64,000 bases of DNA, from positions 179,889-243,888 of the forward strand of contig JAHBYV010000003.1 in assembly GCA_019635795.1 (NCBI GenBank). The letters run 5' to 3'. This DNA is from Rhizobiaceae bacterium (GTDB lineage Bacteria > Pseudomonadota > Alphaproteobacteria > Rhizobiales > Rhizobiaceae). Below, piece after piece: positions 13,337 through 64,000 of the stretch. Every line of letters begins with the position of its first letter. Position 1 is the stretch's first letter. A model generated the notes under the pieces. That model was given only the letters and a program-made list of their open reading frames with translations. It was not told the DNA's origin and did no database searches. Position numbers and translations under genes: made by a program.

Positions 13337-14214
13337 CTTGTCGCTGTTCCGAACAATCCCTGTGGGCGGAACACCAGCACCAGAGCGACGGCGGCGGTGG
13401 CGATCATCTTGGCCAGCGTTGGGGAGAAGAACATGGCAATTATGCCGTCCGAAACCCCGATAATGAGCGCGGCCACCAATGTTCCTCGCAGCGAACCAAG
13501 GCCGCCAATAATGACGACGATGAAAGAAAGCAGGAGTGGATCGAGGCCCATCAGATAGTGGGCTTGCTGTATCGGGACGATCAACACTGCGGCGATGGCG
13601 GCCAGCATAGCTCCCAACGCGAAAACGCCCGCATAAACACGATCAACCGGAATGGCGAACGCACGGGCCATTTCCCTGTCGATTTGCGTGGCGCGCATGA
13701 CAAGGCCGATGCGTGTTCGGGTGAGAATAAGCCAGACCAACAGCAATAGTACAATCGCTGCAGCGATGACGAAAAGCTTGTAGCCGGAATAACCGAACCA
13801 CGGCAGTTGAATGCGCAGGTTAAAAGGCGCTTCCACGGGACGCGCTTCAGGCCCGTAAAAAGTCAGCGCTGCTTGCTGGAGGATATAAAGCAACCCGATT
13901 GTAGCAACGATGGTTGCTTCAGGATTGTATTCGACGCGCCGCAGAACAAGCCTTTCAGAGATGAATGCAACTGCCCCGACAACTAGAGGGCTGATGATCA
14001 GCGCTGCCACAAAGCCGAGCGCTGCGTTGCCGGTAAACAATGATGCAGCACCCCAGGCAATCACCGCGCCAAGCATGAAGAACTCGCCATGCGCAACGTT
14101 TACGACGCGCATGACACCAAAGACCAAGGAAAGGCCCAGCGCTGTAAGAGACAGAACGGCAGCCGTTACCAGACCTTCAAGAGTTGCCAGCAGCAGGTGC
14201 GGACCAAACGCCAT
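13333..14214 (-). CDS. Branched-chain-type ABC transporter permease (LivH-like)
   Basis: A 293-residue permease with about eight hydrophobic segments. The N-terminal block LGLSLVFGVMRVVNVAHGEFFMLG and the later IGGLGSLRGTLVAALIIG are LivH signatures. It forms the membrane channel with the LivM-like subunit. It starts 87 bases after the binding-protein gene, the usual spacing in such operons. Confidence 0.9.
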   Translation of the reverse strand: MAFGPHLLLATLEGLVTAAVLSLTALGLSLVFGVMRVVNVAHGEFFMLGAVIAWGAASLFTGNAALGFVAALIISPLVVGAVAFISERLVLRRVEYNPEATIVATIGLLYILQQAALTFYGPEARPVEAPFNLRIQLPWFGYSGYKLFVIAAAIVLLLLVWLILTRTRIGLVMRATQIDREMARAFAIPVDRVYAGVFALGAMLAAIAAVLIVPIQQAHYLMGLDPLLLSFIVVIIGGLGSLRGTLVAALIIGVSDGIIAMFFSPTLAKMIATAAVALVLVFRPQGLFGTATR

Positions 14215-14301
14215 GCGATCAACAACCCGCGAGATGCGTTTTGAAGCCTGTGTTTATTGCGGATGCCGAGTCGAGGCTAATATCCGGCAGACCAATCACC
14301 G

Positions 14302-15685: not shown

Positions 15686-17104
15686 TCAGCCCGCAGAAGG
15701 CGTTGAAAGAAGCCAAAGTCCAAGCAGTGTATAGCCGACCATAAGCATGGCGAGAGGAAGTTGGCTGATCGTGGCGGTTCGAGCATCGCCATATAGACGC
15801 AGCGCGAGCATATGGGCAATCAGAACGGCAAGCACATGTCCTGCAATAATAGCGGCAGCTATCGTGTTCCAAAGCACCCACGCCGCTTCATGCCCCATGA
15901 CAATACCGGCTTCAAGCGGGCGGTGGCTCAGGCCAATCAGATCCCAGCCACGCGCAAACGGGTCCGACAGGGCGATCAGGGCCGCCTGTGCGTCGACAAG
16001 AAAAGCAGTGAGATAATGTGCGAAGTGGTATGCCAGTGCGATAGGCACCACCGACCATGCCAGCAACCCGACCGAGCGAGGAGCGCTCGTTCGCGCAAAT
16101 GATTCACCGAGACGCACGAGTATGGCAAAAACAATCGGAAACGCGATCATTGCGCCGCCCAGCCCAATTGTGTTGGGAACTATGACAACTGAGCGCCCTG
16201 GAAACTCCAACGGGTTGATCCCTATGCTGCCCAGCCAGACAAAGGTCCTGGAAAATCCGTCGAAAGAAACAGCAGCAAGGTTGGCCAGCAGGAATGCAAT
16301 GCCACTGGCTGGCAATGGTTCAGCATCTGCGACCGCCGCTCCCGGCAAGCGAAGCTCTATCGTTCCTGATCCGTCGGTCGATGGTTGCAGAACGCCAAAG
16401 CGGCCAATCATGGTGAAGAAAACAGTGAGGAACTCACCTTGGCGGGTCCAGCGCTCGTGGCCGAATATCAGCGCAAGCACGAAAGTAATCAGCCAGTAAG
16501 CAAGCACGACGAATGCGAGCCGCGGTGGGTCCTCGGGTGCGATATAAATCAGCTCGAACCAGACGAAGCCAGCAAACAGAATGAGCGCTGGCAGATAGCT
16601 GGCCGCTTCCTTGTTGAATTTGGGTTCTGAACGCGAGAAAAGCGCGTTTACGGTGGTGCAAGGCGCATACCAGGGGTCGATCCAGTGCCAGATGTTTCCA
16701 ATTAAACCTTGAGCCAACAGTAGCCCGACCCACAAAAGCGTCCAGATCGTCAGCGGCAGAGGGTTGTGTGTGGGATCGGGGCTGCCGAAAAATCCCGCGC
16801 AAACAAGCAACACAAAAAAACAAAACGACAGGGCGCTCGTCGCAAATCTGAGCCTCTCCGGCGAACGGGCAATGGGGACCCGGAATGCGCGATAAGCTTC
16901 CAGTGCGGCGGGGCGTATGAAGAAAAGTATGGCGAAACTCGCAATGACCGCACATGCCCCGCCCAACAGGTAATATCCTGTAGGCAAAAGCAGAACGTGA
17001 CCGCGCTCCGAGGCGTGGGCGAAGGCGTCGCGCGGGATGATGGTTGCACCGGCAGCAATCGATGCGAGGAAAAAACTGCGACCCGAGAATGTAGTTGCCG
17101 TCAC
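15686..17104 (-). CDS. Unrecognised multi-pass membrane protein (about 12 segments)
   Basis: A 472-residue protein with a signal-peptide-like N terminus (likely cut near AFA before HASERGH) and roughly eleven or twelve hydrophobic helices. Conserved-looking polar features are [17 protein letters not shown] near the start, [13 protein letters not shown], and a late [16 protein letters not shown] helix with His and Asp inside the membrane. I recall similar proteins in other Hyphomicrobiales labelled fenitrothion hydrolase or hypothetical; that label is from memory and does not prove activity. The GTG start overlaps the pncB stop by four bases (GTGA), so translation is coupled to nicotinate salvage. 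Confidence 0.6.
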
Positions 17105-20032: not shown

Positions 20033-21265
20033 ATGGCCAATGGCGTGGTGATCGTCGGTACAGGACATGGCGGCGTGCAGGTGGCGGCGAGCTTGCGCGA
20101 TGAAGGCTATGACGGGCCGCTGGTTCTGCTTGGAGATGACGCCGAGCTGCCTTATCACAAGCCGCCTCTGTCCAAGACCTTTATCAAGGATGACAAGGCC
20201 GAACCGCAAATATTGCGCGCCGAAAGTTTCTACACTTCCCACAACATCGACCTGCGTTTGGGAGAGCGCGCATTGCGCATTGAAGGCAAGCGCATTGCGC
20301 TTGAGAACGGCAACTCGCTGGAATTCGACACACTTGTTCTGGCAACGGGCGCGCGCCCGCGTGCGCTTTCTGTGCCGGGTGCCGAGTTCAATAACGTTAT
20401 GCCTTTACGCAACATTGTGGATGCGAGGCGCATACGCGAAGCGGCGCGAAGTGCAGAAGACGTTGTGGTCATTGGCGGCGGCTTCATTGGTCTTGAGATT
20501 GCTGCGACGCTCAAAGCGGGCGGGCGAAAGGTGACTGTGGTGGAAGTCCAGTCCCGCGTCTTGGCGCGCGGTGTCAGCCAGGCAATTGCCTCGCATGTGC
20601 AGCGTAGGCTGGCTGATACGGGAGTCGATGTTCGGGCGGACGTGGGAATTGCACGGATTGCTGGCAGCAACGGGGTCGCATCTGGCGTCGAGTTGGTTGA
20701 TGGGCATCTCATTCCGGCAAGTCTGGTCATTGTTGGTGTCGGCGTGGTGCCCAATATTGAACTGGCGCAGTCTGCGGGAATTGCGATCAGCAATGGCATA
20801 AAGATTGACGACGCCATGCGCACGTCACGCAGCGACATTCTGGCCATAGGGGACGTGGCGAATTTTCGTCACTGGATGACGGGGGGGGATGTACGCCTGG
20901 AGTCGGTTCAGAACGCCACCGATCAGGCGCGTTGCGCGGCAAAAACAATTGTCGGGAAGCCGGTTGGTTATGATGCGGTTCCGTGGTTCTGGTCCGACAT
21001 TGGCGACATGAAGCTGCAAATGGTTGGGCTTGTGGGTCGCGAGGATCGCCAGATTGTTGCAGGCTCGCCTGACGAGAACAGGTTCTCGGTTTTTCATTTC
21101 GCGGCGAAAAGATTGATCGCAATCGAATCGGTAAACAGGCCGGCAGACCATATGATCGGGCGGCGTGTCCTTGCGACGGATTATCAGCCTGATTTCGATA
21201 GCCTCAGCCAGAACCCGGACGGGTTGAAAGCGGCGTTTGCTGAATGGCAATCAACTTCTCGTTAG
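20033..21265 (+). CDS. FAD-dependent ferredoxin reductase (rhodocoxin/putidaredoxin reductase type)
   Basis: A 410-residue two-dinucleotide-fold oxidoreductase. The FAD site is VIVGTGHGG near residue 5, the NADH site is VVIGGGFIGLE near residue 145, and ILAIGDVAN is the second FAD motif. A C-terminal reductase domain follows. Such enzymes pass electrons from NAD(P)H to a [2Fe-2S] ferredoxin that serves a cytochrome P450 or dioxygenase; no partner gene is adjacent. The ATG at 20033 has a strong AAAGGGGAG site. Confidence 0.9.
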   Translation: MANGVVIVGTGHGGVQVAASLRDEGYDGPLVLLGDDAELPYHKPPLSKTFIKDDKAEPQILRAESFYTSHNIDLRLGERALRIEGKRIALENGNSLEFDTLVLATGARPRALSVPGAEFNNVMPLRNIVDARRIREAARSAEDVVVIGGGFIGLEIAATLKAGGRKVTVVEVQSRVLARGVSQAIASHVQRRLADTGVDVRADVGIARIAGSNGVASGVELVDGHLIPASLVIVGVGVVPNIELAQSAGIAISNGIKIDDAMRTSRSDILAIGDVANFRHWMTGGDVRLESVQNATDQARCAAKTIVGKPVGYDAVPWFWSDIGDMKLQMVGLVGREDRQIVAGSPDENRFSVFHFAAKRLIAIESVNRPADHMIGRRVLATDYQPDFDSLSQNPDGLKAAFAEWQSTSR

Positions 21266-52526: not shown

Positions 52527-52889
52527 TCAACGGTGGGCTAACAGCCAATCGCGCAGAACTATGACGTGATTGTGCTCGCGGTCTCGCGCTGCAGTGAGCA
52601 AGGTGACAGGCCCTTTGCGGCACCACGCCAGACAGCGTTCAACCGCTTCCGGATTCTGCTCAAGCTCCTGTTCATAGCGTGTACGAAAATCAGGCCAGCG
52701 GGATGGGTCAGCATGAAGCCATTTCCGCAGTTCATTACTCGGTGTCGCATCCTTTGGCCAATCGTCAATCGGCAAGTCGGCTTTTGAAATGCCGCGTGGC
52801 CACAGTCTGTCAACCAGCAGACAGGCGCCCATCCTCGTCTCGGATGGATCGTACACACGTGCGATGGAAATCGGAAAGTCTTGGGCCAT
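52527..52889 (-). CDS. DUF488 family protein (YeaO-like)
   Basis: A 120-residue protein of the DUF488 family. The blocks RVYDPSE, LLVDRLWPRGISK and TLLTAARDREHNH are family hallmarks; function is unknown. The ATG at 52889 follows an AGGA site and gives the usual length; a longer frame reaches 53009 but would run into the terminator of the MaoC operon. Confidence 0.82.
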   Translation of the reverse strand: MAQDFPISIARVYDPSETRMGACLLVDRLWPRGISKADLPIDDWPKDATPSNELRKWLHADPSRWPDFRTRYEQELEQNPEAVERCLAWCRKGPVTLLTAARDREHNHVIVLRDWLLAHR

Positions 52890-52970
52890 CTTATTCCTGC
52901 TTCCACGAACCATTAGACCTTTCTGGAATAAAGTCCAATCTTGGGTGAGAGGCAACGCGTCTGCTGGAAA

Positions 52971-53004
52971 CAAAAAGGCGCATCCGGCAGGCCGCCGAAT
53001 GCGC
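52971..53004 (-). terminator. Terminator of the MaoC-ALDH operon
   Basis: Read leftward, GCGCAT (53004-52999) pairs with ATGCGC (52983-52978), with further GC pairs inside, and is followed by a run of five T (52976-52972). It lies about 35 bases past the stop of the last gene. Confidence 0.7.
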
Positions 53005-53037
53005 TTCATGAATTTGCCGTTTGTCAGATGCCGCTGA

Positions 53038-53535
53038 CTACATGTACCGAATAATGAAGTTGGTTACGGAGACTGGACGCTCCTGCCCGACAACATTGAA
53101 GGTAGCGTCGATATGCACGGCGATTCCCTTCTCGCGTTCTTCGACTTCACGAATTTCGGCGGTCATGGTGAACTGCGAACCGCACTTGAGTGGGGAAAGC
53201 AGGCGGATTCTGTCTGAGCCCATTAGCAGCATGGTGTCGATGTTGCGCAGATCGACCAGATCGAACCAAAGCTTGGGGAAGTAGGCAGGGGTCAACATCC
53301 CCGGAGCAATGGTTGCGCCGAAAGGCGATGCCTTTGCGCGTTCGACATCCCAATGCGTCCATTCTTCATTCTGTACGGATGTGCAGAATTGCTCGATCAT
53401 GGCCTGCGTCACGGTGATCGGCGGCGTTGGGCCGAGCTTGGCACCCTTGAGAGCGCGAAAACCGTCGAGCCCATCGATCACAATCTTGGTTGGCTCGCTG
53501 GCATCTGCCTGCTTCTGGTTGTCACCAACACTCAT
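53038..53535 (-). CDS. MaoC-like hydratase-fold protein (first of two)
   Basis: A 165-residue hot-dog-fold protein of the MaoC group. The hydratase motif region reads VQNEEWTHWDVERAKASPFG; the catalytic His is present, but the Asp normally five positions before it is Asn here. It may therefore be a binding or altered hydratase. It is the third gene of the leftward operon with an aldehyde dehydrogenase and a second MaoC protein, opposite a phenylacetyl-CoA-epoxidase-like cluster. Strong GGAGGAC ribosome site. Confidence 0.78.
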   Translation of the reverse strand: MSVGDNQKQADASEPTKIVIDGLDGFRALKGAKLGPTPPITVTQAMIEQFCTSVQNEEWTHWDVERAKASPFGATIAPGMLTPAYFPKLWFDLVDLRNIDTMLLMGSDRIRLLSPLKCGSQFTMTAEIREVEEREKGIAVHIDATFNVVGQERPVSVTNFIIRYM

Positions 53536-53573
53536 TTCGTCCTCCGTCCATTGTATGTGGGAAATAATATGAA

Positions 53574-53597
53574 GCTCCCGACACTGTGGCCGGGAGC
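53574..53597 (-). promoter_or_regulatory. Intercistronic hairpin between the ALDH and MaoC genes
   Basis: A seven-base perfect stem (53574-53580 with 53591-53597) with a ten-base loop and no T-run. It probably marks an mRNA processing or stability point. Confidence 0.4.
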
Positions 53598-53619
53598 AAT
53601 CTTGAGAAGCTTTAGGTCG

Positions 53620-55134
53620 TTAGCTCACGCGAGGGACAACGACGTCGTACCAGAACTTCTTGTCTCGGGATTTCGAGTCGTCCTGATAGATTGTCTTGAC
53701 TTCCGTATAGGCGTTCAAACCTTCTTCGCCGAATTCACGGCCAACACCCGACTGCTTATAGCCGCCGAACGGAGCAGACACTGCCAATACATGCCATTCG
53801 TTGACCCAGACCCAGCCGGCACGCAGGCGCATCGCAACCTTGCGTGCCTTTTCGTCGTCAGCACTCCACACACCCGCTGCCAGTCCATAATCGCTGTCAT
53901 TTGCGATCCGGACCGCTTCGTCGACATTGTCGTACTTGAGGATAGACAGGACAGGGCCGAAGATTTCTTCCCGCGCAATCCGCATGTCATTGGTTACATC
54001 GGTGAAGATCGTCGGTTCCACGAAGAAACCGTTCGACAGACCGTTGCCGTCTGCGCGCCGACCACCCACAGCGACGCGGGCGCCTTCAGAACGGCCGATA
54101 TCAATATAGCCGAGGACGCGCTCCATTTGTTGCTTTGAAACGACCGGGCCAATCGTGGTTTCAGGATCCATCGGATCGCCGATCCTCATCCGGCGCACGC
54201 GCTCAACCATACGCTCGACGAATTCATCATGGCGGCTCTTGCCCAAAAGCAAGCGCGTGCCTGATTCGCAAACCTGCCCCGAATGGAAGAAGGTCGCATA
54301 CAAGGATCCGTCGATTGCAATTGATGGGTCGGCGTCGTCCAGCACGATGTTGGCTGACTTGCCGCCGCACTCAAGTGTCACTCGCTTCATATCACGGGAA
54401 GCGGCGTTCATAATCTTCCGCCCAACTTCGGTTGAACCGGTAAAGGCAACCTTCTGAACCTTTGGATTATTGATCAATGCTTCGCCAACTTCAGCATCGC
54501 CCGTGATGATGTTGATGACGCCTTTCGGGAAGCCTGCTTCCTTGCACAGGTGCGCAAGGTTCAGCGCACTGACGGGGGTTTCCGGCGCGCATTTCAGCAC
54601 AAGAGTGTTGCCGGTCGCCAACGCCGGGCCAAGCTTCCAGATCGCCATGGTTATCGGGAAGTTCCATGGAATAATCTGCGCGCAAACACCAATCGGCTCG
54701 CGCACTGTGTAGGTAAATGAGCGGCCTGGGCGCTGCATCCCCTCAACGGGACGCGGTTCCCCATCATACTTCAAAGCCATATCAGCAAAATATTTGAGCT
54801 GGCTCACGCCCAATGCCACATCCGAGCGGGCCTTGCCGATCAGCGCACCGGCGTCGCGGCATTCCATGACTGCAAAGTCTTCAAGCCGTTCCTTGAGCAG
54901 ATCTGCCAGACGCAGGATCAACCCTTTGCGCTCAGCGGCGCTCATTTGCGGCCACTCACCCGATTCCAGCGCTGCGGCCGCGGCGTTTACGGCCTTGTCT
55001 GCATCCCTTGGGCCTGCCCATGCGCACCGTGCGACCACCGTGCCGTTTGCCGGGTTATAGCTCTCGAACGTCTCGCCATTTTCAGCATCAACGAATTCAC
55101 CGTTGATGAATAATTTAAGTACAGGCTCGTTCAT
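53620..55134 (-). CDS. NAD(P)-dependent aldehyde dehydrogenase
   Basis: A 504-residue aldehyde dehydrogenase. The cofactor block IIPWNFPITMAIWKLGPAL, the catalytic Glu in TLECGGKSANI and the nucleophile Cys in SGQVCESGTR are intact. It oxidises an aldehyde to an acid. In the Paa pathway PaaZ carries an ALDH and a MaoC domain in one chain; here ALDH is a separate gene between two MaoC genes, so it may oxidise a ring-opened semialdehyde-CoA. The substrate is inferred from context only. Confidence 0.85.
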   Translation of the reverse strand: MNEPVLKLFINGEFVDAENGETFESYNPANGTVVARCAWAGPRDADKAVNAAAAALESGEWPQMSAAERKGLILRLADLLKERLEDFAVMECRDAGALIGKARSDVALGVSQLKYFADMALKYDGEPRPVEGMQRPGRSFTYTVREPIGVCAQIIPWNFPITMAIWKLGPALATGNTLVLKCAPETPVSALNLAHLCKEAGFPKGVINIITGDAEVGEALINNPKVQKVAFTGSTEVGRKIMNAASRDMKRVTLECGGKSANIVLDDADPSIAIDGSLYATFFHSGQVCESGTRLLLGKSRHDEFVERMVERVRRMRIGDPMDPETTIGPVVSKQQMERVLGYIDIGRSEGARVAVGGRRADGNGLSNGFFVEPTIFTDVTNDMRIAREEIFGPVLSILKYDNVDEAVRIANDSDYGLAAGVWSADDEKARKVAMRLRAGWVWVNEWHVLAVSAPFGGYKQSGVGREFGEEGLNAYTEVKTIYQDDSKSRDKKFWYDVVVPRVS

Positions 55135-55144
55135 ACTCTCTTCC

Positions 55145-55600
55145 TTAGATTTCGGATGGACGTCGCCGCAGCATCTGCAGCAGATTTAAAGTCATCACCA
55201 ACACGCCGTTCTGATTCGTCATCTCGTAACGAATCTTGAGAAAGCCGCGGTCGGGCTTGCTTGAGGAGGGGACGTTCTCAAGGACCTCCATGCGGCATTT
55301 CAATGCATCGCCGGGGTCCACAGGTGCCAGCCAGCGCAGCTCGTCAATGCCGATGCCTGCCAATGCACATTCGTCGAAGTATCCGGATGCCATGCCCAGT
55401 TTCCAGGCAAATGACGCGGTTTGAAAGCCGGGGGCTACCAGCCGGCCAAATATCGATTCCTTCGCCGCTTCATCATCAAGGTGGTAGTACTGCGCATCAT
55501 AAAACTCGGCGAATTCAATAATCCTGTCGCGGTCGAGCGTGAGTGCAGGCGTATGCCACACGGAACCGACCGTGAAATCCTCCAGATAAAGTGCGCTCAT
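55145..55600 (-). CDS. MaoC-like enoyl-CoA hydratase-fold protein (second of two)
   Basis: A 151-residue hot-dog hydratase. The motif FYDAQYYHLDDEAAKESIFG keeps the catalytic Asp and His with normal spacing, unlike the other MaoC protein in the operon. It probably hydrates or opens a CoA-bound ring intermediate. First gene of the leftward operon; an operator-like site lies about 30 bases upstream of its start. Confidence 0.8.
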   Translation of the reverse strand: MSALYLEDFTVGSVWHTPALTLDRDRIIEFAEFYDAQYYHLDDEAAKESIFGRLVAPGFQTASFAWKLGMASGYFDECALAGIGIDELRWLAPVDPGDALKCRMEVLENVPSSSKPDRGFLKIRYEMTNQNGVLVMTLNLLQMLRRRPSEI

Positions 55601-55627
55601 GTACTACATTCCCTGCCGGCGTAAAAA

Positions 55628-55647
55628 GATACTATATGATTGGTATG
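55628..55647. promoter_or_regulatory. Operator copy 1 (MaoC/ALDH operon side)
   Basis: Fits GATACTA, 8 bases, GTATG exactly; the ATAC and GTAT arms form an inverted repeat with ten bases between. It is 28 bases from the start of the leftward operon. Confidence 0.6.
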
Positions 55648-55793
55648 CAAATACGCAACCACAAACTCCAGTACTGCAAGCCATGTTTTTTGCGGGCGCG
55701 ACCGTTTGTCGGGTTTAAGTACGAGCTTCCGAATATGCAGGAAAATTGCCATTCAGAGGCGTAAGTTTTCGCTCACCTTTTTCACTCACACTA

Positions 55794-55822
55794 TTGATAC
55801 TATACGGACGGTATGTTAATTA
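55794..55822 (+). promoter_or_regulatory. Promoter with operator copy 2 (paaA-like operon)
   Basis: TTGATA at 55794-55799 and TAATTA at 55817-55822, 17 bases apart, are a plausible sigma-70 promoter. Operator copy 2 (55796-55815, GATACTA-N8-GTATG) covers the spacer, so a bound repressor would block polymerase. Confidence 0.6.
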
Positions 55823-55911
55823 TGCTGTCGAGATACGCAACCAGGCGTAGTGCCATTCGTCTCAAAGGCGTCTTGAGCGCCACATAGCTGAATATTGTGA
55901 GGAGGTACCTT

Positions 55912-56880
55912 ATGGCGGTAATGGAAGCGACCCAATCCAGCACAGCCAATGCTCAGCGGCAGCGTCAGGCTTCAATCGAGAAGCTTGAGCGCGGCGAGTT
56001 GCTGGAAGAAGTTTCGGAGCTTTTCCCGGAATACCGTGCAGTTCTCGAGCAAACGCTCACCATCGCTGCGCAGTCTGAAGTTACAGTGCTGACCTGGGCT
56101 TACACGGTCTACAATACCTGCCCGGATATTGGCGCCAAGATCGCGGTTTCCGCCAGCATTCAGGACGAGATCGGCCATGCCTACCAGCAAGGTATGCTGC
56201 TCGATCGCCTCGGCCTGTCAATGGAAGAGCTTACGTTCGACATTCCGCCAGAATCGATCAAGACCTTGATGGTCATGCAGTTCCCGCTCAAGAACTACAT
56301 TGAGTTCTGCATGGGGCAGGCAATCTATGACCGCGCCGGCCGCCTGACGACGAAGGACATTGAGTTGCATTGCAGCTTTGCACCCTATCGTCGCGCTTTG
56401 CGTAAGGTGAACTTCGAAGAAAACTTCCACGTGCGCCATGGTGAGCGCTGGATCAAGTTCTACTGGAATCATTCGCCTGAAACCCGCAAGGCAGTTCAGG
56501 AGGCCGCTGACTGGTGCTTCCCGCACGGTCTGACATGGTTCGGCCTGCCGGATCATTTGAAGACCCGGAAGGACCAGCTCAATTTCGGAATTCGCAAATG
56601 GTCGAACGACGAAATGCGCGAAAAGTGGTTCCAGTCGGCTTGCATCTTCGCCAATCAGGTCGGTTTCGACGTTCCCGCTCATTTTGACGAAGAGCAGGGC
56701 AAGTACGTCCTTGATTGCCCATATCCGATGCTCTGCGACAAGGAAACGATGACCTGGAAGTATGAGCAGGCAACATGGGAAGAAACCATTGCCCAGCTCA
56801 AATCCGGTGGCCCGCTCAACCCGTCTGGCCATGCGCGCCTGCAGAGTGAAGAGTGGGGAGACTCGCTGTGGGCAATGTAA
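55912..56880 (+). CDS. PaaA-like diiron oxygenase catalytic subunit
   Basis: A 322-residue ferritin-like protein similar to PaaA, the active subunit of phenylacetyl-CoA epoxidase. Diiron ligand motifs are visible: Glu56, the pair Glu86/His89 in QDEIGH and Glu170/His173 in EENFH, matching QDEAGH and EESFH of E. coli PaaA. It is about 13 residues longer than E. coli PaaA and clearly divergent, so a different acyl-CoA substrate is likely. The ATG at 55912 has a GGAGG ribosome site. First gene of the rightward operon. Confidence 0.85.
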   Translation: MAVMEATQSSTANAQRQRQASIEKLERGELLEEVSELFPEYRAVLEQTLTIAAQSEVTVLTWAYTVYNTCPDIGAKIAVSASIQDEIGHAYQQGMLLDRLGLSMEELTFDIPPESIKTLMVMQFPLKNYIEFCMGQAIYDRAGRLTTKDIELHCSFAPYRRALRKVNFEENFHVRHGERWIKFYWNHSPETRKAVQEAADWCFPHGLTWFGLPDHLKTRKDQLNFGIRKWSNDEMREKWFQSACIFANQVGFDVPAHFDEEQGKYVLDCPYPMLCDKETMTWKYEQATWEETIAQLKSGGPLNPSGHARLQSEEWGDSLWAM

Positions 56881-57188
56881 CTGCGGCTGCTGTCCGCAAT
56901 TCATTGAAATCGGTGATGGACCCCCACATGAGCGTAAGCCTCGTGGACATGGGGATGATCCGCAACATCGACGTCAGCGATACTGGTGAGGTCACTGTTT
57001 CGATGGTGTTTCCCTGCATCGGCTGCCCTGCGTGGAGCATGATTCAGGAAGAAATGCGCGAAACAATCTCTGCTCTGGAAGGCGTGCGCTCCGTGCGTGT
57101 GCGCGTCGACTGGACGGAGAAATGGACCAAAGACGATCTGTCAGAATCCGCGCGGGATCGCGCGCATTCATTTGGCTATGTCATTTGA
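56868..57188 (+). CDS. PaaD N-terminal-like MIP18-domain protein
   Basis: A 106-residue protein of the MIP18/DUF59 iron-sulfur assembly family; the FPCIGCPAWSMI block holds the cysteine of the PaaD GCPA motif. In canonical PaaD this domain is fused to a C-terminal zinc ribbon; here the ribbon is a separate gene downstream. PaaD-type proteins help mature the metal centre of the epoxidase. A GTG start at 56868, overlapping the paaA-like stop and preceded by GGGGAG, is used. Confidence 0.82.
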   Translation: MGNVTAAAVRNSLKSVMDPHMSVSLVDMGMIRNIDVSDTGEVTVSMVFPCIGCPAWSMIQEEMRETISALEGVRSVRVRVDWTEKWTKDDLSESARDRAHSFGYVI

Positions 57189-57206
57189 TTTTGAACAGGT
57201 GCAACT

Positions 57207-57452
57207 TTGAGTAAGAAACACAATCGAGGAAATCCCGGCCGCAAGAATATCTACGAGGTATTTGGCCGCTGGAAACACAATGACGCGCTGGCTCATCTTG
57301 GTTCGCTCGAGGCGGCCAATATCGATCTCGCGCGGGCAAGAGCCATCATGCTGTACTCAGAACGTAGTTGGGTCGAACTTTGCATCGCTCCTGCGGGTTC
57401 TTTCATCAAACTCTTTGCTCATGAGGACGAGGTAACTCTCGGCTTTGCATGA
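57207..57452 (+). CDS. PaaB-like epoxidase bridging subunit
   Basis: An 81-residue protein. IYEVFGRWKHNDALAHLGSLEAANIDLARARA fits the PaaB pattern (YEVFVRG, HVGSLHAAD, ALENAR in E. coli), the subunit that bridges the PaaAC dimers. It is about 14 residues shorter than E. coli PaaB, missing part of the C terminus. Start is a TTG at 57207 with an AGGT site. Confidence 0.8.
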   Translation: MSKKHNRGNPGRKNIYEVFGRWKHNDALAHLGSLEAANIDLARARAIMLYSERSWVELCIAPAGSFIKLFAHEDEVTLGFA

Positions 57453-57676
57453 CATCGCCCAAGGTAAATTCAAAGCGGGGCGCATCAATAGCTGCGTTCT
57501 CCAGCGAACTCGACGGTAAGATCGAATGCCCCTGGTGCGGTTCGATGGATACGGTCGTGCGCAGTCCCTTCGGAGGCACCGTCTCCGAAGTGATGATGCA
57601 GTGCAAAGCCTGCAATAGCGGGTTTGGCTGGATGAAATGGCAGGGGATCAAGCCATCCTCGCCCTCTCGAAATTGA
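57449..57676 (+). CDS. PaaD C-terminal-like zinc-ribbon protein
   Basis: A 75-residue protein with two Cys pairs (CPWCGS and CKAC) spaced as a zinc ribbon, and the SPFGGTVSE stretch between them. This matches the C-terminal half of PaaD (CPRCxS, SEFGSTxCK, CDSC) as I recall it. With the MIP18 gene it makes a PaaD in two pieces. Its ATG overlaps the paaB-like stop (ATGA), so the two are coupled. Confidence 0.8.
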   Translation: MTSPKVNSKRGASIAAFSSELDGKIECPWCGSMDTVVRSPFGGTVSEVMMQCKACNSGFGWMKWQGIKPSSPSRN

Positions 57677-57689
57677 AGGAATTGAACAC

Positions 57690-58532
57690 ATGAGCAACTC
57701 GCTGCCCGACCTGTCGACTGCGATAAATGAACTGCTGTGCGTTGCTGACAGCAAATGGGTACTTGGCCACTGGTATATTAAAGTTATACCCAACGGGCGC
57801 TGTCTGCCTGATTTCAACGCGCTTTCCGGTATGGCTCAGGATGAACTTGGCCATACCCGCGCAATGTTCTCCTTCCTTGAGGAAGAAGAGCTTGTTCCTG
57901 TAAACCGTCTCGAATTTGATCGGCCAAGCACTGAAATCCACAACATGCAGTTGCTGGACGAGGCGCCGAAGAATTGGGCGGACTTCGTGGTGACCGCATA
58001 TCTGGCAGAGACCGCATTGTGGCGCCTTTTCTCGACCTTTGAAAATTCTGCCCATCCTGCAATCGCGAACATGGTGGATCAGTTTGGCCAGGAGTCGCGC
58101 TTCCATCATTTGTACTGCAAGGGATGGGTTCAGGCGTTCGACGAGAAGGATTTCGCCGAAGCCGCAGAGTCGATCAAGCAGCGCCTGCCACTGGCATTGG
58201 ATTGGTTCGGTTCGGACAGTTCCGACGATTCGCTCGTTGCGTCAGGCGTTCGCACAAGCTCAAGCGCAGATGCACGCACTGATTTCATCAATGCTGATGT
58301 GGCCGAGTTGCTGGAACTGCTCAACTTGCCCGCAGACACCAAGGTAGCGGCTGTAAACGGTGCGCGCGATGCCGCGCGTCGTCGCCCTGCAGGCTCTGCA
58401 ATGCCAGCGGAGCTCTGGGAATTTGTCCTGCCAACGAATGAGGACGCAATGATCGCACGCCGGCCTCTGCTGGTAAGCAGCACCGACAACGTTCTTTGGT
58501 CGGCTGACAATGTCCCTGAGCCGGTTCTCTAA
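57690..58532 (+). CDS. PaaC-like epoxidase structural subunit
   Basis: A 280-residue ferritin-like protein similar to PaaC, which pairs with PaaA. E. coli PaaC has lost its metal site (LLGQ where PaaA has DExGH). Here the place reads AQDELGH (Glu52, His55), with an acidic residue at 107 (AYLAET) and ESRFHH at 135-140, so more ligands remain. Whether it binds metal is open. Last gene of the operon, followed by a hairpin. Confidence 0.8.
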   Translation: MSNSLPDLSTAINELLCVADSKWVLGHWYIKVIPNGRCLPDFNALSGMAQDELGHTRAMFSFLEEEELVPVNRLEFDRPSTEIHNMQLLDEAPKNWADFVVTAYLAETALWRLFSTFENSAHPAIANMVDQFGQESRFHHLYCKGWVQAFDEKDFAEAAESIKQRLPLALDWFGSDSSDDSLVASGVRTSSSADARTDFINADVAELLELLNLPADTKVAAVNGARDAARRRPAGSAMPAELWEFVLPTNEDAMIARRPLLVSSTDNVLWSADNVPEPVL

Positions 58533-58563
58533 TCGGGATTTGCCTTCTGAGGCTTGAAATTGG

Positions 58564-58600
58564 AATGCGGGTTCGACCGATGGTCTGACCCGCATTTCTA
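58564..58600 (+). terminator. Hairpin after the paaC-like gene
   Basis: A nine-base perfect stem (58564-58572 with 58588-58596) with four more pairs inside (GACC/GGTC), followed by TTCTA. T-run is short; termination may be partial. Confidence 0.5.
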
Positions 58601-58681
58601 TGTCCCACGTTAGCAAAGCGCTGACGTTCTACTTTACTACCCGTATTGTGAACAGACGTTCATTTTTTCCGGCAACCCGGA

Positions 58682-58710
58682 TTGATACTAATCATACAGT
58701 ATGTTAATCG
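58682..58710 (+). promoter_or_regulatory. Promoter with operator copy 3 (transporter operon)
   Basis: TTGATA at 58682-58687 and TAATCG at 58705-58710, 17 bases apart. Operator copy 3 (58684-58703, GATACTA-N8-GTATG) overlaps the spacer. The flanks ATTGATACTA and GTATGTTAAT are identical to those of copy 2. Confidence 0.6.
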
Positions 58711-58904
58711 CGATTCCGTTGTAAGACAGTCTCTCTGCGAGAGAAACTATCTGCAACAAAGGGCAGGTAATGGAGTGCGGTTCGCCGCATCCACGGGCAG
58801 CCAGAAAATTTCATGGGAAGGAGCGTTGCCGCGATGTCGGTCTGCGGCGCGTAGTGAAGAAAATCGACCTGTCGGTCTCGGTTAATCCAGGGAGGAATTA
58901 CATA

Positions 58905-60107
58905 GTGAACCATCTGTTAAAGCGTCTTGCTGTTATGGGAACGTTGCTCGCCAGCACCGCACTGGCAAGTGCAGCTGACGGCCCGGTGAAATTGGGCGTT
59001 CTGAACGATCAGAGCGGAATTTACGCGGATTTGGCTGGTCCAGGTTCGGTGGAAGCTGCGCGCATGGCAGTTGAGGATTTTGGTGGCTCTGCGTTGGGCA
59101 AGCCGGTTGAGATCGTCGTGGGCGATCACCAGAACAAACCTGACATTGGATCAAGCATCGCTCGCCGTTGGTATGACACCGAAAACGTTGACGTTATTCT
59201 TGACGTTCCGACCTCAGGCGTTGCGCTCGCAATTCAGGAAATCACCCGTGATTCCAAGAAGCTGGCGCTCTTCTCCGGCTCAACCTCATCTGATCTGACA
59301 GGCAAGGCTTGCTCCCCCTATGGAGCGCAGTGGACCATCGACACCTATTCCGTGTCACGTAGTGTCGGCGGCGCGACCATTAAAGCAGGTGGTGACAGCT
59401 GGTTCTTCCTGACGGCCGACTTCGCTTTCGGCCACGCCATGGAGCGTGACACGATCAAGGTGATTGAAGACAATGGCGGAAAGGTCGTTGGCACGCTGAA
59501 GCACCCGAACGGGACGAATGATTTCTCGTCCTATCTGTTGCAGGCGCAGGGATCCGGCGCAAAGATCATCGGCCTGGCGAATGCAGGTGGCGACACCATC
59601 AACTCGATCAAGCAGGCACGCGAGTTCGGCATCACCGGACAGCAGCAGATGGCCGCGCTTCTTCTTTTCATGTCAGACGTTCACAGTCTTGGACTCGATG
59701 CTGCTCAGGGCACCTATCTCGCTTCGGCGTTCTACTGGGATCTGAACGATGAAACGCGTGAGTGGAGCAAGCGCTTCCATGAACGTACGGGCCGTATGCC
59801 GACGCAGATGCAGGCAGGTGTGTACAGCTCCACTCTGCATTACCTCAAAGCCGTTGAAAAGCTCGGAACCAAAGACTCCGAAAAGGTCATGGCTGAGATG
59901 AAGGCGACGCCTATCAACGACTTCATGACCAAAGACGGCGTGCTGCGCGAAGATGGTCGCGTTATTCGCGACATCTACCTGTTCCAGGTGAAGTCTCCGA
60001 GTGAATCCTCCGGTGAGTGGGACTATTTCAAGCTGATCTCGACCATCCCCGGTGAAGAAGCATTCCGCCCACTCGATCAGGGCGGCTGCGAGTTCGTCAA
60101 GAAATAG
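58905..60107 (+). CDS. ABC transporter substrate-binding protein, LIV family (Paa-like cluster)
   Basis: A 400-residue type I periplasmic binding protein. A signal peptide spans about residues 1-23 (likely cut after ASA). The mature protein starts GPVKLGVLNDQSG, typical of the aromatic/branched-chain group. A GTG start at 58905 with GGGAGG upstream. Its own promoter carries the same operator as the oxygenase operon, so it probably captures the substrate of that pathway. Confidence 0.9.
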   Translation: MNHLLKRLAVMGTLLASTALASAADGPVKLGVLNDQSGIYADLAGPGSVEAARMAVEDFGGSALGKPVEIVVGDHQNKPDIGSSIARRWYDTENVDVILDVPTSGVALAIQEITRDSKKLALFSGSTSSDLTGKACSPYGAQWTIDTYSVSRSVGGATIKAGGDSWFFLTADFAFGHAMERDTIKVIEDNGGKVVGTLKHPNGTNDFSSYLLQAQGSGAKIIGLANAGGDTINSIKQAREFGITGQQQMAALLLFMSDVHSLGLDAAQGTYLASAFYWDLNDETREWSKRFHERTGRMPTQMQAGVYSSTLHYLKAVEKLGTKDSEKVMAEMKATPINDFMTKDGVLREDGRVIRDIYLFQVKSPSESSGEWDYFKLISTIPGEEAFRPLDQGGCEFVKK

Positions 60108-60124
60108 GCTGAGGATAGGCGTTC

Positions 60125-60242
60125 GCGCTTTGCTTGCGGAAAGTTGTCCTGGGTAGCAAAGCGCGACTGCCATCAAATCCTCGCCAGCGCGATCCGGCAG
60201 ATCCTGCATCCTGACTGTTGCAGATACAGATGCGCCGGATCG
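60125..60242 (+). promoter_or_regulatory. Two intercistronic stem-loops after the binding-protein gene
   Basis: A ten-base perfect stem (60125-60134 with 60155-60164, 20-base loop) and a second of nine bases (60190-60198 with 60234-60242) with an inner GCATC/GATGC pair (60206-60210 with 60229-60233). Neither has a T-run. They lie between the binding protein and the ATPase genes and may protect the upstream mRNA. Confidence 0.5.
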
Positions 60243-60275
60243 GCAAACCTCCATTCCTATCGGAGAGACACAATC

Positions 60276-60347
60276 ATGGTGACGGACATGATTTTCCTGT
60301 CGAATGATGCACCGATGGCCTTCAGGCGAGACTCCCGCCATGGATAA
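60276..60347 (+). CDS. Possible 23-residue leader peptide before the LivG-like gene
   Basis: A short frame with a good ribosome site (CGGAGAGA) starts at ATG 60276 and ends at TAA 60347, eight bases into the LivG-like gene, whose own ribosome site is weak. The peptide has no recognised motif. It may serve to couple translation of the ATPase gene. No conservation evidence is available here. Confidence 0.35.
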   Translation: MVTDMIFLSNDAPMAFRRDSRHG

Positions 60348-61095
60348 CGGTGTTATTCTCTCGGCTGAGAAGCTGACCAAGGAGTTCAAGGGCTTTTACG
60401 CCGTTGAAGAAGTCGATCTTACGGTTAGGCGCGGGCAGATTCATTCCCTGATCGGGCCAAATGGCGCGGGAAAGACAACCTGCTTCAATCTGCTGACAAA
60501 GGTTCTTTCGCCGACGAGTGGCCGCATCACCTACAAGGGCAACGATATCACTGCTATGTCGCCGGCTGACATTGCACGACAGGGCCTTGTGCGCTCTTTC
60601 CAGATTTCAGCCGTGTTTCCTCAGATGACAGCGCTGCAGAATGTCCGTATTGCGCTGCAGCGGCGGCGTGGAGATTCGTTCGATTTCTGGCGCTCGGACG
60701 ATGTGCTTTCCAACTACAACGACGAGGCCCGCCATCTTCTGGCAGATGTAGGGCTGGAAGAGTTTGAAAATACAAACGCGGCCGATCTTTCTTATGGGCG
60801 CAAACGGGCTCTGGAAATTGCCACAACGCTAGCCCTCAATCCTGAGATGCTGCTGCTGGATGAGCCAATGGCAGGCATGGCTCACGAAGACATCGACCGC
60901 ATCGCTACGCTGATAAAGCGTATCTCCGCAAATCGCACCATTCTCATGGTCGAGCACAATCTATCGGTCGTGGCGTCACTCTCAGACACGATAACCGTTC
61001 TCGCGCGCGGCAAGGTGCTTGCCGAAGGCGATTACGAGACAGTTTCAAAAGATCCGCGCGTGATCGAAGCCTATATAGGTACGGGCCATGGCTGA
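60340..61095 (+). CDS. Branched-chain-type ABC transporter ATPase (LivG-like), Paa-like cluster
   Basis: A 251-residue ABC ATPase with Walker A GPNGAGKTT, the LivG-type signature LSYGRKR and Walker B MLLLDEPMAGM. The ATG at 60340 gives the usual N terminus. Pairs with the next gene, which it overlaps by eight bases. Confidence 0.92.
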   Translation: MDNGVILSAEKLTKEFKGFYAVEEVDLTVRRGQIHSLIGPNGAGKTTCFNLLTKVLSPTSGRITYKGNDITAMSPADIARQGLVRSFQISAVFPQMTALQNVRIALQRRRGDSFDFWRSDDVLSNYNDEARHLLADVGLEEFENTNAADLSYGRKRALEIATTLALNPEMLLLDEPMAGMAHEDIDRIATLIKRISANRTILMVEHNLSVVASLSDTITVLARGKVLAEGDYETVSKDPRVIEAYIGTGHG

Positions 61096-61831
61096 AGCAT
61101 CATTGCATGAAAAGACCGCAGCCTCCAAAGACGGGCCTTTGTTAAACGTCCGTGGACTGGAAGCCTGGTACGGCGACAGTCAGGTTCTTCACGGCATAGA
61201 TTTTGATGTGAAGCCCGGTGAAGTCGTGACGCTGCTCGGGCGCAACGGCGCTGGCAAGACAACTACGCTCAAAGCGATCATGGGCATCATGGCCAAGCGC
61301 AAGGGATCGGTTCAGTTTCAGGGTAAGGAGCTGATCAATCTTGCCGCACGCCATGTCGCGCGGCACGGTATTGCTTTCTGTCCCGAGGAACGCGGCATAT
61401 TCTCATCCTTGTCCGTCAAGGAAAATCTGCTTTTACCGCCCCAGATCATGCCGGGGGGAATGAGCGTCGAGCAAATATTCGAGCTGTTTCCGAACCTCAA
61501 GGAAAGGCTTGGAAGTCAGGGCACAAGGCTTTCTGGCGGCGAGCAGCAAATGCTGGCGCTTGGCCGGATCATGCGCACTGGCGCGAAATTCCTGCTTCTG
61601 GATGAACCAAGCGAGGGGTTGGCTCCTGTCATCATTCAGCAAATCGGCCGCACAATCTCTCGCCTCAAGCAGGACGGGTTCACCATAGTTCTGGTCGAGC
61701 AGAACTTCCATTTTGCTTCGAAGGTCGCCGATCGCCATTTCGTGGTCGAGCACGGCAAGGTGATCGACATGATACCGAACGATCAGCTCGACTCGAGCAT
61801 CGATAAGCTGCACGCATATCTGGGGGTGTGA
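61088..61831 (+). CDS. Branched-chain-type ABC transporter ATPase (LivF-like), Paa-like cluster
   Basis: A 247-residue ABC ATPase with Walker A GRNGAGKTT, signature LSGGEQQ and Walker B LLLDEPSEGLAP. It has a 15-residue N-terminal extension compared with many LivF proteins. Starts within the end of the LivG-like gene. Confidence 0.92.
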   Translation: MAEASLHEKTAASKDGPLLNVRGLEAWYGDSQVLHGIDFDVKPGEVVTLLGRNGAGKTTTLKAIMGIMAKRKGSVQFQGKELINLAARHVARHGIAFCPEERGIFSSLSVKENLLLPPQIMPGGMSVEQIFELFPNLKERLGSQGTRLSGGEQQMLALGRIMRTGAKFLLLDEPSEGLAPVIIQQIGRTISRLKQDGFTIVLVEQNFHFASKVADRHFVVEHGKVIDMIPNDQLDSSIDKLHAYLGV

Positions 61832-61835
61832 GGGC

Positions 61836-62723
61836 ATGTTTGAAATTTTCGGAATCCCCTCTCAGGCCCTGTTCGGGCAATTGCTGCTGGGTCTGATTAA
61901 CGGGTCGTTTTACGCAATTCTGTCGCTTGGCCTCGCGGTCATTTTCGGATTACTGAACATCATTAACTTCACGCACGGCGCACAATACATGCTTGGCGCT
62001 TTTGTCGCGTGGATGTTGCTGACCTATTTCGGGATTGGCTACTGGTGGGCGCTGATTCTGGCTCCGGTTCTTGTTGCTGTTACCGGCGTGATCCTGGAAC
62101 GATTGCTGATCTCACGGCTTTATCAGCTCGACCATCTCTATGGATTACTCCTCACTTTTGGCGTCGCTCTGATAGTTCAGGGTGTGCTGCGCAATCACTA
62201 TGGCATTTCGGGTATGCCATATTCGATTCCGGAAGAACTCTCGGGAGCCATGAATCTCGGGTTTATGTTCTTGCCGGTCTACCGCGGTTGGGTGGTGGTG
62301 GCTTCGCTCGTTGTATGCTTGGGCACCTGGTTTGTGATCGAAAAAACGCGACTCGGAGCCTACCTGCGTGCAGCAACCGAAAATCCGGCGCTGGTCGGCG
62401 CTTTCGGCATAAACGTCCCCCGGATGATAACCTTGACCTATGGCTTCGGCGTTGCTCTTGCGGCGTTCGCCGGGGTGCTCGCTGCGCCTATCTATTCGGT
62501 CAATCCGAATATGGGTGCTGACCTGATTATCGTCGTCTTCGCCGTGGTCGTCATTGGCGGAATGGGGTCGATTCTGGGTGCTATCGCCACAGGCTTCGGG
62601 CTTGGTTTGGTCGAAGGATTGACCAAGGTTTTCTACCCGGAAGCCTCCTCGGTGGTCATCTTCGTTATCATGGCCATCGTGCTTCTGGTCAAACCTGCCG
62701 GCCTATTCGGGAGAGCTTCATGA
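61836..62723 (+). CDS. Branched-chain-type ABC transporter permease (LivH-like), Paa-like cluster
   Basis: A 295-residue permease of about eight hydrophobic segments with LivH marks LGLAVIFGLLNIINFTHGA and VVIGGMGSILGAI. It starts five bases after the LivF-like stop and overlaps the LivM-like gene by four bases. Confidence 0.92.
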   Translation: MFEIFGIPSQALFGQLLLGLINGSFYAILSLGLAVIFGLLNIINFTHGAQYMLGAFVAWMLLTYFGIGYWWALILAPVLVAVTGVILERLLISRLYQLDHLYGLLLTFGVALIVQGVLRNHYGISGMPYSIPEELSGAMNLGFMFLPVYRGWVVVASLVVCLGTWFVIEKTRLGAYLRAATENPALVGAFGINVPRMITLTYGFGVALAAFAGVLAAPIYSVNPNMGADLIIVVFAVVVIGGMGSILGAIATGFGLGLVEGLTKVFYPEASSVVIFVIMAIVLLVKPAGLFGRAS

Positions 62724-63724
62724 TGAGCGCTGTTGTTGAAGGCAAAGCCGCATCTTCCCATGCGGAAACCGGTAGGACGGCAAAGTCCCGTAGCCATATG
62801 GCGCTGTTTCTGGCCCTGCTGGCTGCCGGGTTGGTTGCTCCATTCTTCCTCTATCCCGTTTTCATAATGAAGGTGCTTTGCTTTGCGTTGTTTGCGTGCG
62901 CCTTCAATCTCCTGCTGGGCTATGGAGGTTTGCTGTCGTTTGGCCATGCTGCCTATTTCGGTGGCGCCAGCTACATCACGGCCCATGCCGCGAAGGTTTG
63001 GGGTTTGACCCCTGAACTCGCAATACTGGTCGGCACGCTAGCAGCCGCCGTACTTGGGCTGGCGATTGGCGCACTCTCGATCCGCAGGCAGGGCATTTAC
63101 TTTGCAATGGTCACGCTTGCATTCGCCCAAATGGTCTACTTCATCTCCTTGCAGGTTCCGTTTACGGGCGGAGAGGACGGAATTCAGGCTGTTCCGCGCG
63201 GCGAACTGTTTGGCCTAATAAGTCTGAAGTCAGACTTCTCGCTCTATTATGTGGTCCTGGCGATCACTTTTGGGGGCTTGCTGGCGATGCATCGCATCAT
63301 CCACTCACCCTTCGGCCAGGTGCTGACTGCGATCCGTGAAAATGAGGCTAGAGCCATCTCGCTGGGTTACAGGGTCAATCGTTACAAACTCATGGTGTTT
63401 GTTCTGTCCGCAACTCTGGCTGGTCTGGCCGGTTCAACGAAGGCCATTGTCTTTCAGGTTGCCTCTCTCACAGACGTTCACTGGTCAATGTCGGGTGAGG
63501 TTGTTCTCATGACGCTGATTGGCGGCATGGGTACATTCTTTGGACCGGTCGTTGGAGCCGCAGTCATTGTTACGATGCAGAACTATCTGGCATCGTTCGG
63601 GGCGTGGGTCACGGTCATACAGGGCGCAATCTTCGTGGTGTGCGTATTGCTGTTCCGGGAAGGAATTGTTGGCAAGGCCGCCAGCATTTTCAAGAAGTTC
63701 GGCGCGGCGGTCCGCAAGTCGTGA
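62720..63724 (+). CDS. Branched-chain-type ABC transporter permease (LivM-like), Paa-like cluster
   Basis: A 334-residue permease with about nine hydrophobic segments, FNLLLGYGGLLSFGHAAYFGG and the ATPase-contact loop AIRENEARAISLGY. The N-terminal 25 residues are polar and cytoplasmic. Two adjacent ATGs (62720, 62723) could serve as start. Confidence 0.92.
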   Translation: MMSAVVEGKAASSHAETGRTAKSRSHMALFLALLAAGLVAPFFLYPVFIMKVLCFALFACAFNLLLGYGGLLSFGHAAYFGGASYITAHAAKVWGLTPELAILVGTLAAAVLGLAIGALSIRRQGIYFAMVTLAFAQMVYFISLQVPFTGGEDGIQAVPRGELFGLISLKSDFSLYYVVLAITFGGLLAMHRIIHSPFGQVLTAIRENEARAISLGYRVNRYKLMVFVLSATLAGLAGSTKAIVFQVASLTDVHWSMSGEVVLMTLIGGMGTFFGPVVGAAVIVTMQNYLASFGAWVTVIQGAIFVVCVLLFREGIVGKAASIFKKFGAAVRKS

Positions 63725-63748
63725 ACCTCGCTTTGCGCAGAAGGTGTG

Positions 63749-64000
63749 ATGTCCATGAGTGAAAATCCTGATGTCATTGTCCTGAAGGAAGGGCGCGTGG
63801 CTCGCTTGCGCCTGAATCGGCCGGATAGACGCAACGCCATTGCATGGACGATGGTCTCCAACTTGATAGAAATCGTTCAGGACTTCGAACGGGATAAGTC
63901 GATCGAAGCGGTTGTCCTTGAGGGCACAGGCGAGCATTTCTGTGCCGGTGGGGATATTCGAAAGTACATCGAACTGGTTGAAACGCCGGAAGCGTTCATC
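63749..64000 (+). CDS. Enoyl-CoA hydratase/isomerase (crotonase), N-terminal part
   Basis: The first 84 residues of a crotonase-superfamily enzyme; the rest is outside the window. LRLNRPDRRNAIAWTMV is the family start and GEHFCAGGDI the first oxyanion-hole block. It lies 24 bases after the LivM-like gene in the same direction, so it probably belongs to the same operon and acts on a CoA thioester of the imported compound. ATGs at 63749 and 63755 are both possible. Confidence 0.88.
   Translation, partial: MSMSENPDVIVLKEGRVARLRLNRPDRRNAIAWTMVSNLIEIVQDFERDKSIEAVVLEGTGEHFCAGGDIRKYIELVETPEAFI

Follow-up and report, generated by a model that had tools for sequence, protein, structure and literature searches.

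The systems closest to the locus described here are the PaaABCDE epoxidase of the paa pathway of Escherichia coli, the diiron epoxidase BoxB, which acts on aryl-coenzyme A (aryl-CoA), and the mbd cluster of Azoarcus sp. CIB for anaerobic 3-methylbenzoate degradation. In E. coli PaaA, six residues are named as iron ligands (PMC4498308), and the protein also has a lysine bridge. A recent proposal would use PaaA and PaaC as robust markers of phenylacetate degradation in genomes (PMC13186573). The present locus occupies one end of a stretch of 64,000 nucleotides (hereafter the window) from a Rhizobiaceae bacterium; it forms the terminal part of contig C23 (JAHBYV010000003.1) of a draft genome of 3.26 Mb in 30 contigs, base 64000 (contig position 243888) being the final base of the contig. 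The gene order is MaoC1, aldehyde dehydrogenase (ALDH) and MaoC2 on the minus strand, then, on the plus strand, PaaA-, PaaD- and PaaB-like genes, a zinc ribbon gene and a PaaC-like gene (A-D-B-Zn-C), followed by a binding protein, two ATPases, two permeases and a crotonase. Judged from sequence, this gene set is a real and coherent unit that resembles PaaABCDE in its working but fails the definition of a phenylacetyl-CoA epoxidase as regards score, lysine bridge and PaaE. We regard it as probable that the unit stands on its own under MbdR-type regulation and specifies an aerobic pathway that works through CoA thioesters and breaks down an aromatic acid different from phenylacetate.

Comparison with described systems

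The genes were checked by open reading frame (ORF) calls and by profile scans (Pfam, NCBIfam), which agree that a PaaA-, PaaD-, PaaB- and PaaC-like set stands beside separate ALDH and MaoC genes, as stated in the original prediction. All the genes named there are present, but a free-standing PaaD-type zinc ribbon (Table 1) had been missed; as this is a separate gene, PaaD is split over two genes. With the E. coli system the set shares the fold, the six iron ligands of PaaA, the A, B, C and D components, the PaaZ-type activities and a crotonase. It differs in an identity of only 25–30%, the absence of the lysine bridge, a methionine at the position of F108, the order A-D-B-Zn-C, the splitting of both PaaD and PaaZ, the absence of PaaE, another regulator and operator, and a ligase that is not PaaK-like. 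Whereas PaaZ fuses ALDH to an oxepin-CoA hydrolase, the window has separate genes, MaoC2 being 30% identical to residues 530–675 of E. coli PaaZ (the hydrolase domain) and ALDH 23% identical to E. coli PaaZ. BoxB is also a diiron epoxidase of aryl-CoA, but it consists of one polypeptide of about 475 residues where the window has a PF05138 A/C pair, and its fold matches less well (E about 1e-4, against 3e-13 for PaaA). The haloarchaeal PaaD of NCBIfam (NF041868) and the zinc ribbon named 'PaaE' (NF041869) are like the window in that DUF59 protein and ribbon are separate genes, but the window proteins score well below the cut-offs (79 vs. 180 and 30 vs. 100). The mbd cluster as described in PMC4424350 has in common with the present system an MbdR-type TetR, the operator ATACN10GTAT and an ABC importer in one operon with a CoA ligase; it differs in using anaerobic ring reduction, where the window has a predicted O2-dependent diiron oxygenase.

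Active-site residues and fold

The PaaA-like protein scores 98.7 bits against TIGR02156 and does not reach the PaaA equivalog cut-off of 280. In an alignment of 119 sequences, 33 of the canonical type and 86 divergent, it shows all six diiron ligands (E56, E86, H89, D140, E170 and H173); five of these are kept in 86/86 divergent sequences and the sixth (E155 in E. coli numbering) in 85/86. The lysine bridge is lost, in line with the earlier remark that the subunits differ in key residues from E. coli Paa proteins: K68 is a lysine in 33/33 canonical-type and 0/86 divergent sequences, E49 a glutamate in 32/33 and 0/86, respectively, and the window protein carries S82 and A63 at these two positions. 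The position of F108 holds phenylalanine in all 33 canonical-type sequences, methionine in the 15 sequences of clade Ia, which include the window protein, and L, T, I or V in the 23 of group Ib; since it is phenylalanine in the 48 remaining divergent sequences, it does not mark the divergent clade as a whole.

An AlphaFold2 model of the PaaA-like protein, built with 33 sequences, has a predicted local distance difference test score of 91. Its best fold matches are PaaA chains, with a template modelling score of about 0.80 by query length and 0.86 by target length, followed by PaaC and a Sulfolobus homologue and then by BoxB. K, N or R occupies the first ligand position of the C subunit in 79/79 divergent sequences; a catalytic role was therefore rejected, and the subunit is probably non-catalytic, as in PaaC.

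Phylogeny and distribution of the divergent clade

Relatives were collected by a contig scan with a three-sequence alignment, 80 of the 114 confirmed matches being kept; a scan of genome contigs with the window protein as sole query gave no relative, and blastn against E. coli genomes gave no match. The PaaA-like protein is 51–58% identical to proteins of marine gammaproteobacterial metagenome-assembled genomes (MAGs) and of a Hellea MAG, 53% to relatives from Sulfobacillus and Mycobacterium sp. SM1, 37–42% to plasmid-borne relatives (Agrobacterium, a Natrialbaceae archaeon, Thermus) and 36–47% to the other loci kept, including those of Bradyrhizobium, Burkholderiales, Amycolatopsis, Bacilli, Chloroflexota and haloarchaea. 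The matches found in 30 of 100 related genomes are only 25–30% identical to it. An IQ-TREE phylogeny of 98 sequences separates the canonical type (33) from the divergent one (65) at 100/100, so that the PaaA-like protein falls outside canonical PaaA as had been anticipated, and in the same run it groups with 14 other Ia sequences at 100/99. The tree samples 65 of the 86 divergent sequences, the outer group being represented by 27 of 48 rows; the canonical side includes L147, in spite of its 238 bits against the PaaA cut-off of 280, and 19 rows from related genomes (L005–L023) assigned to it with no separate profile test. The tree program also marks long branches, with the caution that groupings of that kind can be spurious.

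Taken on these sequences, the divergent clade is deep, widespread and paralogous to canonical PaaA; it is seen in Proteobacteria, Bacilli, Actinobacteria, Chloroflexota, Thermus and haloarchaea, and searches of an open-access library showed no characterised member. Close to the window genome it is rare: at E 1e-40 the protein is found in 1/394 genomes of the family, 2/385 of the class and 2/398 of the phylum, its own genome counted each time, and because of this rarity the gene was probably gained horizontally. On two Agrobacterium plasmids typed as conjugative (L024, L025), trb transfer genes lie near a divergent A-D-B-C set, which suggests one way in which the set may have spread. Halogeometricum pallidum has two near-identical divergent PaaA genes on separate contigs (L151 = G148:C33; L097). 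An amidohydrolase of sequence cluster c17 lies near divergent PaaA genes in 15 loci, 14 of them from Bacilli and the other being L058; one copy (L100:15488-17275) matches adenine deaminase at 275 bits, below the cut-off of 472. Within clade Ia, a BisC/TorA-like molybdopterin enzyme (cluster c34, 7 loci) is found near A in 7 of the 14 other loci, and the copy L029:13069-15402 scores 884 bits with TIGR00509, below the cut-off.

Operators and regulator

A 20-base element, GATACTA-N8-GTATG, occurs three times in intergenic stretches of the window. Each of three gene groups (oxygenase, MaoC/ALDH and importer) thus has the same operator in front of it, in agreement with the proposal that the importer is dedicated to this pathway. 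The pattern is found just three times in the window and 0 times in 100 shuffles, a result that by itself is not independent because the pattern was derived from those three copies. The independent match is a fourth one: the whole genome contains exactly four perfect matches, the three of the window and one on contig C17 (C17:29380-29399), where it precedes an operon whose products include an acyl-CoA dehydrogenase, a crotonase, a CoA ligase and a binding protein, together with what by ORF inspection are ABC ATPases and permeases. Within the element lies ATACN10GTAT, which footprinting has identified as the operator of MbdR; this TetR repressor is released by 3-methylbenzoyl-CoA (PMC4424350). 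Binding of such a regulator here is predicted from this likeness. The site reported for Thermus PaaR, CNAACGNNCGTTNG (PMC9493321), is unlike it.

A candidate regulator is encoded near the end of C17. This TetR matches MbdR (PDB 4uds) with 148.5 bits over residues 23–220, which includes the ligand domain (next match, 56), and the TetR of the related cluster L045 does likewise (144.5 bits; next, 62.7). Among the 85 loci compared (L024–L108), 19 have a TetR of the same sequence cluster (c15); the operator stands before A in four of these (L045 and the near-identical L040, L041 and L061) and before the TetR gene in five (L043, L047, L048, L054 and L055). In the loci that have no c15 TetR, 12 operator matches occur in 1.30 Mb, with 0 in the interval from 500 before to 100 after the A-frame start. 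By kinship with MbdR, the inducer is most likely the aryl-CoA.

Probable continuation across the contig end

The crotonase announced in the original prediction is present, but the contig end cuts it after 84 codons. A search of the genome for this family gives 15 matches, of which 13 span at least 173 of 251 profile positions; the other two are short fragments at contig ends, namely the window piece (profile positions 4–64) and a piece at the end of C17 (41171 bases; profile positions 101–248). Compared with full-length homologues, the two fit one gene with about 30 codons missing. Behind the C17 piece (the C17 end being locus L140) lie an AMP-type CoA ligase of 523 residues and the TetR gene described above. 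We conclude from these sequences that C17 very probably continues C23. It is very improbable that C17 lies elsewhere and that its ligase and TetR belong to another unit: the missing codons and the lack of overlap between the contig ends would allow it, but among the 15 crotonase matches only these two are complementary short contig-end fragments, the C17 TetR is the only strong match in the genome to the TetR of L045 (226 bits; next, 33.8), and the four perfect operators all lie on C23 and C17.

With C17 taken as the continuation, the statement that no paaK gene is seen needs a complement: the genome has no PaaK over the cut-off (best 110.9 vs. 646.3 bits), yet a CoA ligase is found across the contig gap, where it had been suggested to look for one; the reductase sought there is missing from the cluster. 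The ligase is PRK06155-like (459 bits, below the cut-off of 722), and an inference on the substrate from it was dropped, every family match shown being below its cut-off.

Enamidase is an enzyme of anaerobic nicotinate fermentation. A homologue (PDB 2vun, 373 bits) is encoded on C17 just upstream of the fourth operator (L140:5057-7571), adjoining genes for a RutB-like hydrolase (117 bits, below the cut-off) and for a protein that by inspection is MarR-like.

Gene order and electron supply

Gene order was counted in 85 distinct divergent loci, two near-duplicates having been dropped. After A it is D-B-C-Zn in 52 and D-B-Zn-C in 12; 11 loci have D-B-C with no ribbon found, six have B-C-Zn with no D found, and four are incomplete. 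The zinc ribbon is a separate ORF in 72 of these loci, was not found in 13 and is fused to D in none. By these models, in whose seed E. coli is included, E. coli PaaD has the two parts together in a single protein. The 25 canonical-type loci read B-C-D (17), B-C (7) and C-D (1); being short stretches in none of which a ribbon was found, they do not allow fusion of the ribbon to be decided.

No paaE reductase is encoded in the window, as noted originally, and its presence elsewhere in the genome was rejected, none of the five Fer2 matches of the genome being PaaE-like by inspection. One of them is an adrenodoxin-type [2Fe-2S] ferredoxin (on contig C12) and the other four are NuoG-like or of the molybdenum-hydroxylase type by inspection. 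A ferredoxin of the adrenodoxin type lies beside the oxygenase genes in 10 of the 14 other Ia loci, and the C12 protein is 38–50% identical to those of these ten. The only Reductase_C-type ferredoxin reductase found in the genome is encoded in the window itself (Table 1), and we conjecture that this reductase and the C12 ferredoxin feed the oxygenase.

Proposed pathway and nature of the substrate

By homology, the LIV-type importer would take up the aromatic acid and the C17 ligase would convert it to its CoA thioester. The ring would be epoxidised with O2 by the PaaA-like diiron subunit; the PaaC- and PaaB-like proteins would hold this subunit in place, and the split PaaD would mature it. As PaaE is missing, a separate ferredoxin of the [2Fe-2S] type, together with its reductase, is proposed as the source of electrons. 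The crotonase would then isomerise the epoxide, the MaoC2 hydratase hydrolyse the ring ether and ALDH oxidise the aldehyde, beta-oxidation completing the breakdown, and the MbdR-like TetR, released by aryl-CoA, would control the unit through the ATACN10GTAT operators. A CoA-thioester oxygenation pathway, as originally suggested, is thus supported; its completeness is not, the cluster being without a reductase.

The genomes of 50 of the 85 loci (48 genomes) were searched with the PaaA equivalog. Canonical PaaA over the cut-off accompanies the divergent copy in 29 of the 48 and is lacking in 19; as 18 of the 29 are not titled as MAGs, mis-binning fails to explain the co-occurrence. Eight of the 11 clade-Ia genomes searched have both types, all eight being MAGs. 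Of the second, canonical paa cluster that had been suggested as a check, a canonical PaaA is found in relatives, but the window genome itself has no PF05138 match other than the A and C genes of the window and hence no canonical PaaA. This absence, together with MaoC2 and ALDH mirroring both halves of PaaZ and with PaaX-like regulators in two relatives from Bacilli, would suit a non-orthologous phenylacetyl-CoA epoxidase that degrades phenylacetate where the canonical genes were lost or never present. We hold this to be unlikely in view of the frequent coexistence of both types, the loss of the lysine bridge in every divergent sequence, the methionine in place of Phe108 throughout clade Ia, the lack of a PaaK over the cut-off in the window genome, and a regulator that is MbdR-like with an operator unlike the PaaR site. 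The substrate is most likely an aromatic acid other than PHENYLACETATE (phenylacetate), which accords with the original prediction, here too from sequence.

It is quite unlikely that the CoA thioester attacked by the oxygenase is non-aromatic or alicyclic (for instance that of an unsaturated or cyclohexane-type acid), with the aryl-CoA logic merely borrowed. Acyl-CoA dehydrogenases (cluster c20 near A in 9 of the 14 other Ia loci, and one in the second operator-marked operon, on C17) and the remodelled pocket of the PaaA-like protein would fit such a substrate, but the kinship with MbdR suggests an aromatic CoA inducer, and the MaoC2/ALDH pair suits the opening of a ring ether.

For an aromatic substrate, a benzoate-like acid is the first guess, on account of the MbdR kinship and of two Bacilli loci with CoA ligases that score 617 and 585 bits as benzoate-CoA ligases, above the family cut-off of 375. 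It is conceivable, if doubtful, that the clade represents a second, BoxB-independent aerobic epoxidase of the (substituted) benzoyl-CoA ring, derived from PaaA, devoid of lysine bridge and PaaE and, over part of its range, under MbdR-type control.

Several observations weigh against the MbdR-regulated pathway for an acid other than phenylacetate. The ends of C23 and C17, when compared, share no sequence. With one mismatch allowed, the operator is no more frequent genome-wide than a reversed control (9 vs. 10, the four perfect matches included), for which reason only perfect matches were used, and 10 of the 19 c15-TetR loci have no operator at A or TetR. The divergent protein, being the sole type in 19 of 48 genomes and in the window genome, could replace PaaA in these genomes. 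Finally, the two Bacilli loci with benzoate-CoA-type ligases are the same that have PaaX-like regulators (250 and 264 bits, just below the cut-off of 264.6), so that in those loci the substrate could be an arylacetyl compound; different branches of the clade may have different substrates.

Features of the window and neighbouring genes

The coordinates are collected in Table 1. The LIV/HAAT-type importer is complete, as claimed before: binding protein, two ATPases and two permeases are all confirmed by profile. The start of the PaaA-like gene was taken as 55912 and not 55897 because AGGAGG directly precedes the ATG at 55912, and the binding protein probably starts near 58905, to judge by its signal-peptide-like stretch. 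The closest PDB relatives of the latter, 3i09 and 3n0w, were listed without ligand information, and an inference on its ligand was dropped. A MaoC of the sequence cluster of MaoC1 (c21) occurs near A in 11 of the 14 other clade-Ia loci.

Table 1. Genes and operator copies of the locus, with the ferredoxin reductase encoded elsewhere in the window
Feature	Position	Strand	Evidence or remark
Ferredoxin reductase, Reductase_C type	20033–21265	+	
MaoC1, MaoC-like hydratase	53038–53535	-	PF01575 46 bits
Aldehyde dehydrogenase (ALDH)	53620–55134	-	PF00171 593 bits; NCBIfam best BADH 571 bits, below cut-off 669
MaoC2, candidate ring-ether (oxepin-type) CoA hydrolase	55145–55600	-	NCBIfam best, hydratase end of PaaZ, 62 bits; whole-protein cut-off 563
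Operator copy 1	55628–55647		before MaoC2-ALDH-MaoC1
Operator copy 2	55796–55815		before oxygenase genes
PaaA-like diiron oxygenase subunit	55912–56880	+	PF05138 121 bits
PaaD-like DUF59 protein (maturation)	56853–57188	+	PF01883 75.5 bits; NF041868 78.7 bits, below cut-off 180
PaaB-like bridging subunit	57207–57452	+	weak, PF06243 20.9 bits, below cut-off 27; position and the occurrence of cluster c1 in other loci lend support
Free-standing PaaD-type zinc ribbon	57449–57676	+	PF23451 52.3 bits, above cut-off 27
PaaC-like structural subunit	57690–58532	+	PF05138 75.5 bits; K at first ligand position
Operator copy 3	58684–58703		before importer genes
LIV-type periplasmic binding protein	58770–60107	+	PF13458 359 bits
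LIV-type ABC ATPase	60304–61095	+	PF00005 and BCA_ABC_TP_C
LIV-type ABC ATPase	61088–61831	+	PF00005
LIV-type permease	61836–62723	+	PF02653 136 bits
LIV-type permease	62720–63724	+	PF02653 119 bits
Crotonase, N-terminal part	63749–64000	+	cut by contig end; start approximate

Adjoining MaoC1, at window 52527–53009, is a gene for a DUF488 protein assigned to the 'inactive N3i' subclade at 132 bits; it has no known link to the locus. A second LIV-type importer is recognised by ORF sizes and order at 10934–15603, its binding protein (14302–15603) having been scanned (PF13458, 187 bits); between this gene and a nicotinate phosphoribosyltransferase gene lies an ORF of 472 residues (15686–17104) with no Pfam match at E 1e-5.

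Implications

Names such as 'phenylacetic acid catabolic protein' lump the divergent paralogous clade together with PaaA and PaaC, and the clade could thus yield false positives in surveys that use PaaA and PaaC as markers; among the sequences aligned, the K68 and E49 positions told the canonical type from the divergent one. The MbdR-type operator and regulator provide a direct handle on the inducer and hence on the substrate. If the clade acts on another aryl-CoA, it would represent an extra aerobic aromatic pathway for marine and soil bacteria and haloarchaea.

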